The translations under genes and the position numbers were made by a program. Positions 1,250 through 15,016 of a stretch of 26,264 nucleotides of DNA are shown here, piece by piece (position 1 is the first letter of the stretch; every line of letters starts with the position of its first letter). Origin of the DNA: a virus; the IMG/VR virus record IMGVR_UViG_3300048588_000044, positions 1 to 26,264 of that record; one strand, 5' to 3'. The notes below the pieces were generated by a model, which worked only from the letters and a program-made list of their open reading frames with translations, was not told where the DNA came from and ran no database searches.

Positions 1250-1284
1250 CAACTAAAAATAAATTAAGAAAGAAGGATTTGAAA

Positions 1285-1461
1285 ATGAGCGATACAGTAA
1301 AGACAAAGCAACCAACTGCTAAAGTTGACAAGAAGAAAAATACATTGAGTGTATATACATACTTAAACTTTAAGCGATTCGGTCTAGCAGTAGCTATTGA
1401 CGATGGTATTAAAATTACAGTATTATGGTTCGAAACACATATTAAGTTCGAAAAGAAGTAA
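1285..1461 (+). CDS. hypothetical protein, 58 aa
   Basis: I chose the ATG at 1285 because AAGAAGGA lies just upstream. A TTG two codons earlier (1279) is a possible alternative. The protein has a Lys-rich N-terminus (about 20 residues) followed by a beta-rich hydrophobic stretch (LSVYTYLNFKRFGLAVAIDD...). It lies between two other small genes on the same strand. I recognise no family. Confidence 0.55.
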   Translation: MSDTVKTKQPTAKVDKKKNTLSVYTYLNFKRFGLAVAIDDGIKITVLWFETHIKFEKK

Positions 1462-1740: not shown

Positions 1741-2969
1741 AGTATCCAAGAGCACTAGAGATAATGCTCGAGGGACATAACGTACTACTCACAGGTCAGG
1801 CAGGTTCTGGTAAAACATGGACTATCAATGAGTTTGTCAAGCAAGCCAAGAAGAAGCATAAGAAGGTTGTTGTAACAGCTACAACAGGACTTGCATCTTC
1901 ACACATTGGTGGACAAACAATACACAGTTGGTCTGGGATGGGGCTTGATGACCATCTACACGATGACTACATCTATACTATGAGCGAGACTAGGAAGAAA
2001 GATATTCGGAAAACAGACATTCTTATCATAGATGAGATAAGTATGATGCACGATTACAATCTGGATATGGTTGATGAAGCCATGAGGCTTATACGTGAGA
2101 ATGATAAGCCGTTTGGGGGGATTCAGATTATCCTAGTTGGGGACTTTTTCCAGTTACCACCAGTTAAACAAGGTGGTTCGGGGAAGTTCGTAGTATTCAG
2201 TAAAGTCTGGAAACGCATGAATGTCAAGGTATGTTACCTCGAAGAGCAGTTTCGACAAGACGATGCAGATTTACAGGACATCTTGAATGCTATGCGTGAT
2301 GGAACGTTGAATCAACGCCATCTACAACTCTTAAAGAGTCGCATAGGACACAAGGCAACCGATAATGTTACAAGATTATATACCTTGAATATAGATGTTG
2401 AGAATATAAATAATAAGAAGCTCGATGAACTACCAGGTGATACGCATTATTTTTTGCGTACAACAAGAGGCAGTTCGTGGAACGATGCACAGATATTACA
2501 AAAGAATGTTCTAGCACCAGAGATACTCAAACTGAAACAGGATGCAGTAGTTATGGCGGTTAAGAACGACCCAGAAGGAAGGTTTTTCAATGGCAGTATC
2601 GGAACGGTACAAGGATTTTCTGGTGACGGTTTTCCTATTGTTGATTTTGGCGATATGTACGCCTACACGGTCTACCCCGAAGAGTGGGAATACAAACGTG
2701 GTGATAGAACGACAGCAGGATTAACACAGATACCACTAAGGTTAGCATACGCTATCACAGTACATAAATCGCAGGGAATGACACTAGACACAGCAGAGGT
2801 AGATTTATCAAATGCTTTCGTAGAAGGTATGGGATATGTAGGTCTATCACGAGTCAGAAGCCTCAAGACTCTATACCTAAAAGGTTTTAATCAGAGGGCA
2901 TTGATGGTTAGTCCAGTGGCAAGAGCAATCGACACTAAGTTTAAGGAGAAGAGTAAAGAAAATGAATAG
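1737..2969 (+). CDS. PIF1/Dda-like superfamily 1 DNA helicase
   Basis: This 410-aa protein has the layout of PIF1-type SF1B helicases. Walker A is GQAGSGKT at residues 20-27. A TTGLAS-type motif Ia follows near residue 50, and Walker B is ILIIDEISMM near residues 93-103. A GDFFQLPPV stretch (motif III region) follows near residue 133. The C-terminal motifs are AITVHKSQGMTLD near residue 340 and VGLSRVRSLKTLYL near residue 370. Such enzymes are 5'-3' ATP-driven DNA helicases that phages use in origin melting, recombination or fork progress (as for T4 Dda). It is of normal length for a compact phage version. The gene leads the replication and recombination group. Confidence 0.92.
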   Translation: MKYPRALEIMLEGHNVLLTGQAGSGKTWTINEFVKQAKKKHKKVVVTATTGLASSHIGGQTIHSWSGMGLDDHLHDDYIYTMSETRKKDIRKTDILIIDEISMMHDYNLDMVDEAMRLIRENDKPFGGIQIILVGDFFQLPPVKQGGSGKFVVFSKVWKRMNVKVCYLEEQFRQDDADLQDILNAMRDGTLNQRHLQLLKSRIGHKATDNVTRLYTLNIDVENINNKKLDELPGDTHYFLRTTRGSSWNDAQILQKNVLAPEILKLKQDAVVMAVKNDPEGRFFNGSIGTVQGFSGDGFPIVDFGDMYAYTVYPEEWEYKRGDRTTAGLTQIPLRLAYAITVHKSQGMTLDTAEVDLSNAFVEGMGYVGLSRVRSLKTLYLKGFNQRALMVSPVARAIDTKFKEKSKENE

Positions 2970-3105
2970 GAATATCAACTTACTAGAGAAACTTTTGAAG
3001 CGTAAAATACGTTTAGATGACCTTGCGAAACGCAAAACTATCAAACGTAGAGCACAGAAAAAGTTCGCACGTAAAACTAAGCAAGCACAAAGGAGAATGA
3101 AGTAA
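2962..3105 (+). CDS. very basic small protein, 47 aa
   Basis: The ATG at 2962 overlaps the helicase stop. The 47 residues contain many Lys and Arg (for example KRRAQKKFARKTKQAQRR) and would carry a strong positive charge, suggesting binding to nucleic acid. An AAGGAG lies about 14 nt upstream, farther than usual. Its TAA overlaps the next ATG (TAATG), indicating coupling to the acidic coiled-coil protein that follows. The opposite charges of the two products are notable, but any complex is speculation. Confidence 0.55.
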   Translation: MNRNINLLEKLLKRKIRLDDLAKRKTIKRRAQKKFARKTKQAQRRMK

Positions 3106-3311
3106 TGCAGGGTGATTTAAGGGCAGAACTAGACGAAGCAAGGGAAGAGATTGAAGACCTAAACTCTGAGCTAGAAAACGCCAGGGATGAAATTGATACG
3201 CTACAGGAAGAGGTAGATAGCCTGGAGAGTCAGCTAGATGACAGGTATGACGAAGGGTATAATCAAGCACTGGAAGACATAAAGGCACACGCTGAAGAAA
3301 TTGAGCGATAA
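3105..3311 (+). CDS. acidic coiled-coil protein, 68 aa
   Basis: An AAAGGAG ribosome-binding site precedes the ATG. Residues about 3-48 form a near-continuous heptad pattern (LRAELDEAREEIEDLNSELE...), so a coiled coil is expected. The tail carries a YDEGYNQA motif that recurs in the coiled-coil protein at 16882. The product is strongly acidic. It ends at the base of a leftward terminator hairpin. Function unknown. Confidence 0.65.
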   Translation: MQGDLRAELDEAREEIEDLNSELENARDEIDTLQEEVDSLESQLDDRYDEGYNQALEDIKAHAEEIER

Positions 3312-3345
3312 AAAAAGAACACCTGGCAGGGGATACCAAGTGTTC
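3310..3345 (-). terminator. Rho-independent terminator of the leftward sRNA
   Basis: On the minus strand a 10-bp stem (3336-3345 with 3317-3326, one G-U pair) with a 9-nt loop is followed directly by seven U residues (A tract 3310-3316 on the plus strand). There is no U tract on the plus-strand side, so it acts leftward only. Confidence 0.8.
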
Positions 3346-3390
3346 AAAGAAAGGAGTTAAGCGTAGAGTAACGACAAAGAAATCTCTACA
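3310..3390 (-). ncRNA. predicted phage small RNA (~81 nt) with anti-Shine-Dalgarno segment
   Basis: A consensus promoter at 3397-3425 and a terminator at 3310-3345 on the minus strand define a transcript of about 81 nt with no ORF. Predicted layout: a 5' hairpin (GTAGAG/CTCTAC around a 15-nt loop), an unpaired linker containing TAACTCCTTTCTTT, and the terminator hairpin. The linker is complementary to ribosome-binding sites. It matches AAAGGAGTTA at 3591-3600 (before the nuclease gene) and at 16868-16877 (before the coiled-coil gene). This is the usual architecture of a trans-acting sRNA. Expression and targets are inferred. Confidence 0.65.
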
Positions 3391-3417
3391 CCAGGTATTA
3401 TACCATAACTCCTTTCT
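3348..3417. repeat. perfect 12-bp inverted repeat around the sRNA 5' region
   Basis: AGAAAGGAGTTA (3348-3359) and TAACTCCTTTCT (3406-3417) are exact reverse complements. The left arm forms the sRNA linker and the right arm lies in the spacer of the sRNA promoter. A second nested pair is GTAGAG/CTCTAC, and GGTATTATACC over the -10 is also a dyad. This could be an operator or simply a duplicated ribosome-binding-like word. Confidence 0.7.
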
Positions 3418-3425
3418 AATGTCAA
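3397..3425 (-). promoter_or_regulatory. leftward sigma70-type promoter for the sRNA
   Basis: On the minus strand TTGACA (3420-3425) and TATAAT (3397-3402) are spaced by 17 bp with an extended -10 TGG. This is a full consensus match. Transcription would start near 3390. It is divergent from the promoter at 3477-3505. Confidence 0.85.
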
Positions 3426-3476
3426 TAGCCCAGAGATGGAATTGTAAATAGTACAACATATTTTTGGCAAAAACTA

Positions 3477-3505
3477 TTGACTTTTGTGGTCAAGTTTGAT
3501 ATAAT
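3477..3505 (+). promoter_or_regulatory. strong sigma70-type promoter (P2)
   Basis: TTGACT (3477-3482), a 17-bp spacer and TATAAT (3500-3505) with TG extended -10. The spacer ends in GTTTGA, as in the promoters at 608 and 6680. It would drive the recombination gene group beginning at 3526. Confidence 0.85.
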
Positions 3506-3525
3506 ACCCAGTATGAAAGGCAAAG

Positions 3526-3612
3526 ATGATATTAACAATAATAGTATTAGTGGCTTTGGTCGTGACGTTACTAGTCTCGAGAAAGTTCGTAAAGGAGTTA
3601 GATAGTGAGTAA
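3526..3612 (+). CDS. very small membrane peptide, 28 aa
   Basis: The ATG at 3526 is preceded by GAAAGG at 5-nt spacing. The product is one hydrophobic helix (ILTIIVLVALVVTLLV) with a charged tail (SRKFVKELDSE). It lies directly after promoter P2 and overlaps the nuclease start by 8 nt. It resembles the 37-aa membrane protein before P1 in size and topology but not in sequence. A frame starting at 3513 competes, but it has no ribosome-binding site and a less protein-like product. Function unknown. Confidence 0.5.
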   Translation: MILTIIVLVALVVTLLVSRKFVKELDSE

Positions 3613-4867
3613 ACTATTCAAATATAATAGCAAGCTCGTAGGGGTAACTTTTGAAGGTAGGCAAGCAGTCATATCTACACTCAAAGGTGATGAGCCACTA
3701 CGTGTAAGGCGAGAAGCAGACAACGAATACGACCCAAATGCAGTAGCAGTTGACGTAAAAGTTGGTGAGGAACTGTTGCCGATTGGCTACATAGCAAAAG
3801 ACAAGAATCTTGAAATTGCTAAGTCACTCGATGCAGGTATCCCAGTAGAGATTAAGCTGGCAAGTATTACAGGTGGCGATGGTAAGAGTTTCGGTGTCAA
3901 TATCGAACTACAGTACCAAGAAGCACCTAAGAACGCAACAGTCGCAGCACCAGTCAAGACGGAAGAAACTTTCGTTAAACCGACTAAGGCTGAGATGCAA
4001 AACGTTCTACGTTACTTGACCCAGGTAGTCGATGCTAGTGGTAAGAAGACAGTTGAACCTACCATGTACAATTCGGTACTGTTAGGTAAGAACATAGAAG
4101 TCCAAGAGGTAAATGGTCACAAACGACTTGAAGGATTCTTGAGTGGTAGTAAGTTCCCAGAACAGTTCTACGCTCCATTTGATGAAGAGCAAATCCTTGA
4201 AGCAATGGTCAAGAAGTACGAAGTCAAGAAGGAAGACTTGCTTGCAATGTGGGGTATAAACTCTGATATTTCTACAAACTTTGGCAATGCAATCCACTTT
4301 GCGATGGAGAACTACGACAAGAACCATGTTCTAGGCGAGAAAGTTCGGAACTATGTAAAGAAACCTACCAAGGCAAATCCAGAAGGTGTATTATCCGCTA
4401 ACAAAGCGTTGAACCGTAACCCATTCTTGCAAAAGATTGTGAACGATTTCCACGAAAAGTTTGGTGGCGATTACATCCGATTCAACGAAGAGTTTGTGTG
4501 GGACAAGGGTCTGAAGTTGTGTGGTTCTATTGACCGTATCAAGGTTGTAGACCTCAAGAAACGAATCATTCGTATCCAGGACTTCAAGACAGATGCAGAT
4601 GTACATGAGACTAAGTACCAGTTAACGACTAGTCCGTTCTACCACTTGACACAGGGTGAAAATCCAGTCATGGGTAAAGAACTGTTGGACTACCACTGGT
4701 TACAGCTTTCATTCTACGCATTCATCTTGCAACGTGCAGGTTGGAAAGTAGAAGGACTCGATGTATACTGGGTCAACGGTGAGAAATTAGCCAATGGTGA
4801 AAATCCTTGGGAAGAGTTCAGTCACGATGTGATTGATATAACAGTAGTAATTGTAGGAGAAGAGTAA
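3605..4867 (+). CDS. HIRAN domain fused to PD-(D/E)XK (RecB/Cas4-like) nuclease
   Basis: This is a 420-aa protein. Residues about 6-110 match a HIRAN domain: VGVTFEGRQ..., READNEYDPNAVAV and IGYIAKD are its usual elements. HIRAN binds DNA ends or damaged DNA. From about residue 225 the protein has the RecB-family nuclease order: GNAIHFAMENY (motif with His), GSIDRI (Asp near 309), RIQDFKTD (Asp-x-Lys near 324-326), and a C-terminal LQLSFYAFIL (QxxxY) helix. It is probably an end-processing exonuclease for phage recombination. The start is GTG, with AAAGGAGTTA four bases upstream. The SSB-like gene follows with no gap. Confidence 0.85.
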   Translation: MSKLFKYNSKLVGVTFEGRQAVISTLKGDEPLRVRREADNEYDPNAVAVDVKVGEELLPIGYIAKDKNLEIAKSLDAGIPVEIKLASITGGDGKSFGVNIELQYQEAPKNATVAAPVKTEETFVKPTKAEMQNVLRYLTQVVDASGKKTVEPTMYNSVLLGKNIEVQEVNGHKRLEGFLSGSKFPEQFYAPFDEEQILEAMVKKYEVKKEDLLAMWGINSDISTNFGNAIHFAMENYDKNHVLGEKVRNYVKKPTKANPEGVLSANKALNRNPFLQKIVNDFHEKFGGDYIRFNEEFVWDKGLKLCGSIDRIKVVDLKKRIIRIQDFKTDADVHETKYQLTTSPFYHLTQGENPVMGKELLDYHWLQLSFYAFILQRAGWKVEGLDVYWVNGEKLANGENPWEEFSHDVIDITVVIVGEE

Positions 4868-6346: not shown

Positions 6347-6650
6347 TACAATAGACATAATGGGGGAAAAGACACATGAATGGCTCAAGTTCATCCAAAA
6401 ATGGAAGAGAGACAACCCACCACTCGACAACGGTTGTTACGTCTGTGGACACTGCGGAAGGTTCGTCCTCGCAGATGAAGTCACGCTCGGTCACATCTAC
6501 TCGAGGTCAAGAGAGCCGAGTCTTGTATTCGAGCCGACTAACATACAGCCAGAACATCCAGCGTGTAACTCGTGGAAGGGTAGCAGATACTTTGCTCCAA
6601 GATTTACAGTAGACCAGTATGAGTTTATGTATTGGATGAGTAGAATGTAA
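6330..6650 (+). CDS. HNH endonuclease-like protein with zinc cysteines
   Basis: The 106-aa frame starts at 6330 with AAGGGAGA upstream, overlapping the resolvase gene by 17 nt. It has a CxxCxxC cluster (CYVCGHC, residues 36-42) and LGHIYSRS (His55). TNIQPEHPACNSWKG (Asn71 and His76, near 70-84) follows, so the order matches the beta-beta-alpha HNH metal finger. Free-standing HNH proteins in phages may be homing endonucleases or packaging partners. The spacing here is unusual, so activity is uncertain. Confidence 0.7.
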   Translation: MRGYNSTIDIMGEKTHEWLKFIQKWKRDNPPLDNGCYVCGHCGRFVLADEVTLGHIYSRSREPSLVFEPTNIQPEHPACNSWKGSRYFAPRFTVDQYEFMYWMSRM

Positions 6651-6679
6651 AAACCACAACACAAAATGTCATAAAACAC

Positions 6680-7734: not shown

Positions 7735-7855
7735 GTCGATGTGACCGAGTGGCTAAAGGTAACGCAAAAGAAGTATCGAGGTTTTGTAATCTTCTTCCTG
7801 TTAGCGTGTCTCTCCTAGTGGGAGACCAAGGGTTCGAATCCCTTCATCGACTCCA
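7735..7855 (+). tRNA. class II tRNA-like gene with enlarged anticodon region; anticodon not assignable
   Basis: The acceptor stem GTCGATG/CATCGAC is perfect, with encoded CCA. The D-arm ACCGAGTGGCTAAAGGT is canonical. A long variable arm (GTCTC...GAGAC) and a T-arm AAGGGTTCGAATCCCTT complete a Ser/Leu/Tyr-type tRNA. Between the D-arm and the variable arm, however, there are 46 nt instead of about 17. ACGC/GCGT can form an outer stem, and AAGAAG/CTTCTT a second stem with a 17-nt loop. The extra ~29 nt may be an intron-like insertion. Otherwise this is a tRNA-derived RNA. Confidence 0.6.
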
Positions 7856-7858
7856 TAA

Positions 7859-7939
7859 GGGGTATCAAAGGTTAGACCAGCCGTAAATCCACATGTGGAA
7901 ACCGTTGGGACGTGAGTTCGATTCTCACATACTCCACCA
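7859..7939 (+). tRNA. tRNA-like gene with normal acceptor and T-arm but abnormal core
   Basis: GGGGTAT pairs with ATACTCC (one G-U), followed by discriminator A and an encoded CCA. The T-arm GTGAG-TTCGATT-CTCAC is canonical. The 46 nt between them cannot be folded into a standard D-arm plus a 5-7-5 anticodon arm. The best helix is CCAGC/GTTGG with a 22-nt loop that contains a TCCACATGTGGA palindrome. It lies four bases after the previous tRNA-like gene, so the two are probably co-transcribed. It may be a degenerate tRNA, one with an insertion, or a tRNA mimic. Confidence 0.5.
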
Positions 7940-7943
7940 ATAC

Positions 7944-8018
7944 AGGGAATTAGTGTTAGAAGCAACACATCGGATTCCAAACCCGAAGAACTGGGGGCAG
8001 TACCTAGATTCCCTGCCA
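7944..8018 (+). tRNA. tRNA-Trp (CCA anticodon) with atypical D- and T-loops
   Basis: All arm lengths are standard. The acceptor is AGGGAAT/ATTCCCT, then G73 and an encoded CCA. The D-stem is GTGT/ACAC. The anticodon stem is TCGGA/CCCGA with one mismatch. The anticodon loop is TTCCAAA, with U33, CCA and A37. The T-stem is CTGGG/CCTAG. G73 is the usual tRNA-Trp discriminator. The T-loop is GGCAGTA rather than TTCRANY and the D-loop lacks GG, so elbow contacts would be missing, as in some mitochondrial tRNAs. It begins four bases after the preceding tRNA-like gene. Confidence 0.65.
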
Positions 8019-13602: not shown

Positions 13603-14112
13603 ATGGCAAAGCACGAGTCCCTGATTGGTAACAAGTATGGGAAACTAGAAGTGGTAAGATTACATGACCGCAAAAGCGGTAAAATACGTTGGCAATGTCT
13701 CTGTGACTGTGGTAACACAGCCTACGTTATGAGCAACAACCTCAAGAAGCCTGGCGGTACTAAGTCATGCGGTTGTATCGGTATAGAAAGATTGAAGGGT
13801 ATGCTTGGCGAAAACAGCCCCACATGGAAAGGTGGCAGGTTCATCGACAGCGGTGGCTATGTTAATGTATATAAACCACAACACCCTAACGCAAAAAGCT
13901 CTGGGTATATCCGAGAACACAGGTTTATAATGTCAGAGATGCTCGAAAGACCGCTTACAGAAGATGAAAATGTTCATCATAAGAATGGTGACAAAACTGA
14001 CAACACTCCCAATAACCTTGAATTATGGAACACCTCACAACCATCTGGTCAGAGAGTCCAAGACAAGGTAAAATGGGCTAAAGAAATATTGGAGTTATAT
14101 GGAAGAAGTTAA
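13603..14112 (+). CDS. HNH endonuclease with N-terminal zinc-ribbon-like module
   Basis: Residues 1-60 hold GNKYGKLEVV, a cysteine set (Cys32, 34, 36) and CGC (56-58), the lead module often seen in phage HNH/AP2-type homing enzymes. A short GENSPTWKGG linker follows. The C-terminal HNH has EHRFIMSEMLERPL (His106), NVHHKNGDKTDN (His125-His126) and NNLELW (Asn138). It probably cuts DNA at a specific site and spreads by homing. It overlaps the Pnk gene by 14 nt, so it lies between the RNA ligase and the kinase genes without disrupting them. Confidence 0.85.
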   Translation: MAKHESLIGNKYGKLEVVRLHDRKSGKIRWQCLCDCGNTAYVMSNNLKKPGGTKSCGCIGIERLKGMLGENSPTWKGGRFIDSGGYVNVYKPQHPNAKSSGYIREHRFIMSEMLERPLTEDENVHHKNGDKTDNTPNNLELWNTSQPSGQRVQDKVKWAKEILELYGRS

Positions 14113-15016
14113 AGAGAGTATAGTAGCGACAAAGAAACCTCAAGTTACTAAGAATCCGAAGTTACTCTGTCTCAGGGGGCTGCCTGGTTCTGGTAAAACC
14201 ACTTATGCTCGAGAGTTAGCAAACAAAGGGTGGGTTCGTGTGAACAAAGATGACTTACGAGCCATGCTGAACAACGGTAAGTTCAGTAAACAAAACGAAT
14301 CATACGTGATTGCGTTGCGAGATGAGATTATCATTTCGTCACTAGTACAGGGAAAGAACGTGGTAGTCGATGACACCAACCTTGACCCTAAACACTTGAT
14401 AGCATTTGAGTCTATCGCTGGTGAGTTCCTGGCAGACTTCGAGATTCGATTCTTCGACACAGATGTTCAGGAATGTATCAGACGTAATAAACTACGTGAG
14501 CATCCAGTACCAGAGAAGGTAATTTATACTATGTATGAACGCTACCTAAATCCTCCAGTACCACCAGTTGCTTACGATGACAATTTAGAAGAGTGTCTGA
14601 TTGTAGATATTGACGGAACACTAGCACACATCGCAGATGGTCGCAGTCCTTATGACGCAAGCCGAGCTATGAACGATGCACTAGATGAGAACGTTGCTCT
14701 ACACGTAGCTATGATGTACAATCATGGATACAAGATAATCATTGTCAGTGGTCGTCACGAAGAACATCGTGAGGTTACGGAAGAATGGTTGAAACTACAC
14801 AATGTGCAGTACGATGAACTTTACACACGCCTGGAAACAGATGTTGATGAAAATGGCAATCGTCTTGATGATACTCTCGTAAAAGAACGTATCTATAACA
14901 CTCACATCAAGGGAAGATTCAATGTTAAATACGCATTGGATGACCGTAATAGGGTAGTCAACAAGTGGAGAAGCCTTGGCATAACCTGTTGGCAGGTAGC
15001 ACCAGGTAACTTCTAA
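14099..15016 (+). CDS. polynucleotide 5'-kinase/3'-phosphatase, T4 Pnk-like
   Basis: The 305-aa protein has an N-terminal P-loop kinase (GLPGSGKTT, residues 27-35; VNKDDLRAML and VVDDTNLD follow). A C-terminal HAD phosphatase has the DxDGT motif (LIVDIDGTLAH near 168-178), IIVSGRHEE and a YALDDR acidic end motif. The domain order and length match T4 Pnk. It converts 2',3'-cyclic or 3'-phosphate and 5'-OH ends, as left by anticodon nucleases, into ligatable ends. Together with the Rnl2-type ligase it can form an RNA-repair pathway. The extra N-terminal ~20 residues are basic. Confidence 0.92.
   Translation: MEEVKESIVATKKPQVTKNPKLLCLRGLPGSGKTTYARELANKGWVRVNKDDLRAMLNNGKFSKQNESYVIALRDEIIISSLVQGKNVVVDDTNLDPKHLIAFESIAGEFLADFEIRFFDTDVQECIRRNKLREHPVPEKVIYTMYERYLNPPVPPVAYDDNLEECLIVDIDGTLAHIADGRSPYDASRAMNDALDENVALHVAMMYNHGYKIIIVSGRHEEHREVTEEWLKLHNVQYDELYTRLETDVDENGNRLDDTLVKERIYNTHIKGRFNVKYALDDRNRVVNKWRSLGITCWQVAPGNF

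Follow-up and report, generated by a model that had tools for sequence, protein, structure and literature searches.

A conserved small RNA gene predicted in phages that probably infect Saccharibacteria

The window analyzed here comprises the 26,264 bases of a virus record from IMG/VR, and its minus strand almost certainly carries a real, conserved small RNA (sRNA) gene with a predicted 81-nt transcript. The gene is complete, has its own promoter and intrinsic terminator, and recurs in 13 further IMG/VR phage contigs. The reading that we favor, and consider rather probable, is that of an Hfq-independent trans-acting phage sRNA that would act as a start-site antisense RNA, with a 58-aa phage gene among its targets. 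Gene anatomy, conservation, stem covariation, and complementarity that is statistically in excess at gene starts support this reading; that the gene is transcribed and that its RNA pairs with and represses targets in the cell is what we infer from the sequence.

Anatomy of the sRNA gene

The gene extends from 3425 to 3310 on the minus strand. Its promoter consists of TTGACA, a 17-nt spacer that includes an extended -10 TG, and TATAAT, and is followed by an 81-nt body and an intrinsic terminator. The -35 hexamer (3420–3425) and the -10 hexamer (3397–3402, with the TG directly upstream) match the consensus at 12 of 12 positions, as the sequence-only reading had stated. This promoter is the sole 12/12 match within the first 9 kb, the runners-up reaching 11/12; promoter-like sites numbered 23 against 18.8 expected, and single sites arise by chance. 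With a predicted start 7 nt after the -10 hexamer, at about 3390, the RNA would span 3310–3390 on the minus strand, in agreement with the body of about 81 nt proposed earlier. The predicted fold of the 86-nt RNA (3395–3310) has a free energy of -27.5 kcal/mol (z = -6.0), which none of 200 dinucleotide shuffles equaled. It comprises a 5' hairpin (3360–3392) with a 9-bp stem (3392–3384 with 3368–3360) and the 15-nt loop AUUUCUUUGUCGUUA (3383–3369), followed by a single-stranded pyrimidine linker of about 14 nt, UUAACUCCUUUCUU (3346–3359), that is anti-Shine-Dalgarno-like. The terminator (3310–3345) has a 12-bp stem (3345–3334 with 3328–3317), a C-rich loop, and seven T (3316–3310), which bears out the U-tract terminator described before, and it has the most pairs among the seven terminator-like sites in the first 9 kb.

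The body had also been described as free of open reading frames, and this holds only in substance. It lies within a chance open frame of 148 aa (3013–3459, minus strand), which is not credible as a gene because its start precedes the sRNA promoter and because it is antisense to genes that are absent from the relatives. The gene thus combines its own promoter and intrinsic terminator with the lack of a conserved reading frame, as expected of a trans-encoded sRNA. As a separate observation, part of the promoter spacer, AGAAAGGAGTTA (3407–3418), repeats the linker (3349–3360) in inverted orientation, exactly or nearly so, in the window and its closest relatives. This 12-bp repeat was rejected as an essential element because it is lost in distant relatives.

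Conservation among related phages

Relatives with the sRNA were gathered by helicase-based and pattern-based searches. In the 13 further contigs, the sRNA gene occupies a constant site downstream of a Dda-like helicase gene and runs in the opposite direction. Three of these contigs (G006–G008) are identical across the sRNA stretch, such that the 14 contigs represent about 12 distinct sequences. The promoter TTGAC[AT]-17-TATA[AG]T is present in all 14 copies, with an invariant spacer length and exactly 7 nt between the -10 hexamer and the stem that begins the core. Identity of the 42-nt core is 88–100% in 13 of the 14 copies, namely 100% in the close group, 95–98% in G009, G010, and G014, and 88% in L141; the G013 copy (64%) contains an inserted hairpin. 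In the distant genomes G009, G010, G013, and L141, identity is 38–42% at helicase third codon positions and 35–53% in the promoter spacer. Conservation of the promoter, the spacing, and the core therefore goes far beyond chance.

Within the core, the loop is unvarying apart from an R in its first position and two bases that differ in G013, and the linker is kept in 13 of 14 copies, with ACUCCUU retained in G013. In the stem, 94% of cells are paired across the copies; compensatory changes include an A-U to U-A replacement in L141 and one more pair altered on both sides. As good a covariation was reached in 13 of 500 shuffles, and sliding the partner strand destroyed the covariation. The terminator stems vary in sequence among the relatives yet still pair. 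At the sequence level, this pattern marks an RNA that is both transcribed and structured, with the loop and the linker under the strongest constraint. The sequence-only reading had named conservation in related phages as a point on which its proposal could fail; promoter, hairpin, linker, and terminator were all retained in the 13 contigs, and with them the proposed layout of the trans-acting type (5' hairpin, pyrimidine linker, and terminator hairpin).

The sRNA is absent from three contigs (L144–L146) with 59–60% identical helicases. Among 84,980 species genomes of bacteria and archaea, none matched the core pattern, and megablast of positions 2800–4000 likewise found nothing in 50,697 phage records. 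A scan of viral contigs with the bare 15-nt loop returned many chance matches, none of which scored as the sRNA by covariance model.

Probable host

The best chromosomal relatives of the helicase are mostly from Saccharibacteria (47–56% identical, versus 41–44% for Bifidobacterium), suggesting, indirectly, that Saccharibacteria are the probable hosts of the phage lineage. The exonuclease gene that neighbors the sRNA was found in only one of 80 genomes of the Saccharibacteria class. An Hfq-dependent sRNA presupposes a host that has Hfq; the Hfq family (PF17209) was found in none of these 80 genomes of the inferred host class, and the control search was positive in five known genomes. The 16S genes of three Saccharibacteria genomes end in GGAUUACCUCCUUUCUAG, and the sRNA linker UUAACUCCUUUCU matches the anti-Shine-Dalgarno tail UUACCUCCUUUCU at 12 of 13 positions.

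Candidate targets

For the target scan, the start regions (-30 to +42) of all genes in 49 ortholog groups were scored against the RNA. The top match to the RNA core was a 58-aa gene (1285–1461, plus strand) located two genes upstream of the helicase; its score was -7.16 against a best-of-49 null of -2.74 ± 0.83 from mononucleotide shuffles, to be read with the caveats that A-rich gene starts favor pyrimidine-rich RNAs, that the ortholog sequences are not independent, and that the gene was chosen as a target after the scan. With correction for the 49 gene groups, one of 150 dinucleotide shuffles of the core was as good. For the hairpin part alone, five of 167 dinucleotide shuffles were as good. 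When the full-length RNA was ranked by net hybridization energy in the six phages that have the gene, it placed 2/35, 2/26, 3/44, 1/59, 1/34, and 2/64. The predicted pairing in the window (1268–1320) covers the Shine-Dalgarno, the start codon, and codons 4–12. Four phages (the window, G004, G005, and G007) share a predicted arrangement in which the linker lies on the Shine-Dalgarno (GAAAGAAGG in the window, G004, and G005) and the loop on codons 4–10 or so, downstream of the AUG; this geometry is consistent with antiparallel pairing. The loop pairing in G005 is perfect over 14 nt (AGUAACGACAAAGA). The G001 gene pairs in another register, with a perfect 12-nt match (AGTTAAGCGTAG), and the G002 ortholog shows only moderate pairing. 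Based on these predictions, the 58-aa gene is the most likely conserved target.

The 58-aa gene was not detectable in the distant carriers G009, G010, G013, G014, and L141, some of which are fragments, and these carriers keep the loop unchanged except for the two bases in G013. The gene therefore cannot alone explain the conservation, and from the sequence comparison the RNA of the distant carriers must have further targets or a linker that serves as a decoy. The 58-aa protein had no confident family assignment (DUF3242 only below the cut-off, and no PHROG) and no confident predicted fold (pLDDT 54). Because the complement of the RNA resembles the start region of the 58-aa gene, we speculate that the sRNA may have arisen by inverted duplication of that region.

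Complementarity at gene starts extends beyond this gene. Within the first 45 nt of genes, the hairpin strand has nine perfect matches that are 9 nt or longer, versus 2.0 expected from shuffles and one to three in other windows, and four that are 11 nt or longer, versus 0.15 expected. Long matches are thus enriched in the first 45 nt relative to later windows, the antisense strand, and shuffles. A conserved single-stranded seed with imperfect complementarity to distant ribosome-binding regions is, by prediction, what a trans-encoded sRNA has. The strongest pairing in the window, revealed by DNA self-comparison, is with the start region (14078–14142, plus strand) of a polynucleotide kinase gene (14099–15016). 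This gene was demoted from main target because the relatives lack the complementarity, and it is perhaps a second candidate target specific to the window. In the stretch 13603–14112, an HNH endonuclease gene ends within the start of the kinase gene.

Mode of action and alternative explanations

In the favored reading, a constitutive-type sigma-70 promoter with an extended -10 would give an 81-nt RNA ending at its own terminator, and this product of a free-standing gene would pair in trans with mRNAs. The 15-nt loop would serve as the seed on the first codons of the targets and the pyrimidine linker would pair with their Shine-Dalgarno. The 5' hairpin would open on pairing and the terminator hairpin would remain intact, such that ribosome entry would be blocked and translation initiation stopped without Hfq. 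The 58-aa message would be the most likely conserved target, and further phage genes, such as the polynucleotide kinase gene of the window, would be likely extra ones. The absence of Hfq from all 80 genomes of the probable host class suits such a self-sufficient loop-and-linker RNA.

Several other explanations were considered. The likeness between the linker and the host 16S end in three Saccharibacteria genomes suggests an anti-Shine-Dalgarno decoy, in which the hairpin and UUAACUCCUUUCU would mimic host helix 45 and the 16S tail and thereby block many ribosome-binding sites simultaneously instead of a single selected target. The retention of the linker, including ACUCCUU in G013, and the occurrence of AAGGAGTTA in many phage Shine-Dalgarnos are consistent with such a role. 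However, a pure decoy has no need of a near-invariant 15-nt loop; in addition, it is long loop complements that are enriched at gene starts, whereas the best linker-only targets form a separate and weaker group of genes, such that we regard a decoy as unlikely. It is conceivable, if doubtful, that the phage uses the sRNA to mimic the 3' end of host 16S rRNA, in which case a targeting-loop hairpin is joined to a near-exact anti-Shine-Dalgarno copy and would block chosen start sites. If true, this would be a chaperone-free two-part RNA acting in ultra-small Saccharibacteria. The near-invariance of the loop among phages that have no common detectable 58-aa gene, together with the precedent of phage sRNAs such as PreS of lambda, which acts on the host dnaN message (PMC12197685), would also fit an sRNA whose main partners are mRNAs or a protein of the host, the phage mRNA complementarity being incidental. 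Nevertheless, the full loop complement (at most one mismatch), a form that leaves room for shorter host matches, was found in only 41 of 195 Saccharibacteria genomes, close to the level of a reversed control pattern, and no shared locus was apparent; this explanation seems improbable.

The sRNA and the helicase operon converge, and the sRNA T-tract abuts the stop codon of the open reading frame at 3105–3311. This could point to a cis-antisense RNA, in the style of lambda OOP, directed at the 3' end of that operon or at transcripts reading through into the following one. Yet the overlap with the neighboring coding frame is about 2 nt, the adjoining gene differs in most relatives while the sRNA persists, and the loop and linker of such an RNA would drift with the opposite strand, all of which make this very unlikely. 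A DNA-level element (an operator or a replication or packaging site) or a chance pair of promoter and terminator is extremely unlikely: a regulator-type palindrome does adjoin the sRNA gene, but the covarying stem, the terminators that still pair despite sequence turnover, and the fixed promoter-to-core spacing mark a transcribed RNA, and composition does not shift near 3.4 kb. A role as a replication origin or primer is unsupported, and GC skew follows the gene strand. As for an RNA-based anti-CRISPR in the form of a solitary repeat mimic, which would resemble a host CRISPR repeat, the core pattern was unmatched in the species genomes searched.

Comparison with known RNAs

The sequence-only reading knew of no named RNA with this sequence, and Rfam likewise yielded no matching family. 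The best Rfam match for the whole RNA is FsrA (RF02273), at 20.7 bits, far below the gathering threshold of 80. FsrA is a C-rich Bacillus sRNA that acts by pairing at the ribosome site. It resembles the phage sRNA in layout and length but differs in loop sequence, lineage, and targets. Lambda OOP, a short RNA transcribed leftward from its own promoter to its own terminator within the rightward early/replication block, is cis-antisense to the cII message. The sRNA described here is also a short leftward phage RNA in a rightward block; however, it lacks a matching overlap with an opposite-strand target (about 2 nt with a neighbor that is not conserved), and its complements lie elsewhere in the genome. 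VpdS of VP882 and PreS of lambda are phage sRNAs whose mRNA targets are encoded at other loci (PMC12197685), as is predicted for the sRNA of the window. Both come from phages of Vibrio and E. coli and are described as binding Hfq (PMC12197685), in contrast to the probable host class without detectable Hfq; the distinction is drawn from these descriptions. The sRNA is a new RNA family within a class, the trans-encoded base-pairing sRNAs, that is already known.

Neighboring and other genomic features

A divergent promoter (TTGACT-17-TATAAT; 3477–3505, plus strand) precedes the HIRAN/PD-(D/E)XK exonuclease gene (3605–4867; Pfam HIRAN and PDDEXK_1). Between it and the sRNA promoter lies a palindromic box, TGTAAATAGTACAAC (3443–3457). 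The box TGTAnnnnnTACAACA occurs at 583–597, 3443–3457, and 6646–6660, in each case 11–20 bp upstream of the -35 hexamer of one of the three best plus-strand promoters (608, 3477, and 6680). The motif TGTAnnnnnTACAAC with at most one mismatch has 10 matches versus 2.75 expected. The box is recurrent in the relatives; it is probably an operator of a phage regulator and may also act on the sRNA promoter. Because the same box precedes these three promoters, the rightward operons look co-regulated.

Elsewhere in the window, positions 7735–8015 contain a run of tRNA-like genes, of which ARAGORN calls none. Rfam gives a tRNA match at 7944–8015 (33.8 bits) that is without a normal T loop, a tmRNA-model match at 7859–7939 resembles a short tRNA ending in CCA, and a further tRNA-like 3' half is located near 7735–7855; these may be decayed or unusual phage tRNAs. 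The gene at 1474–1740 begins at an internal GTG, and its orthologs start upstream with MARRK (region 1446–1480), such that a frameshift or an altered N terminus in the window genome is possible.

Significance

To our knowledge, no sRNA has been described for phages of candidate-phyla-radiation bacteria, Saccharibacteria included, and our literature searches found none from phages of these groups. The conserved sRNA is a ready marker for the phage lineage, and the prediction that it pairs with the 58-aa gene is specific enough to be tested by reporter. Given hosts that apparently have no Hfq, a strongly conserved sRNA of the trans type would show RNA regulation in very reduced cells.
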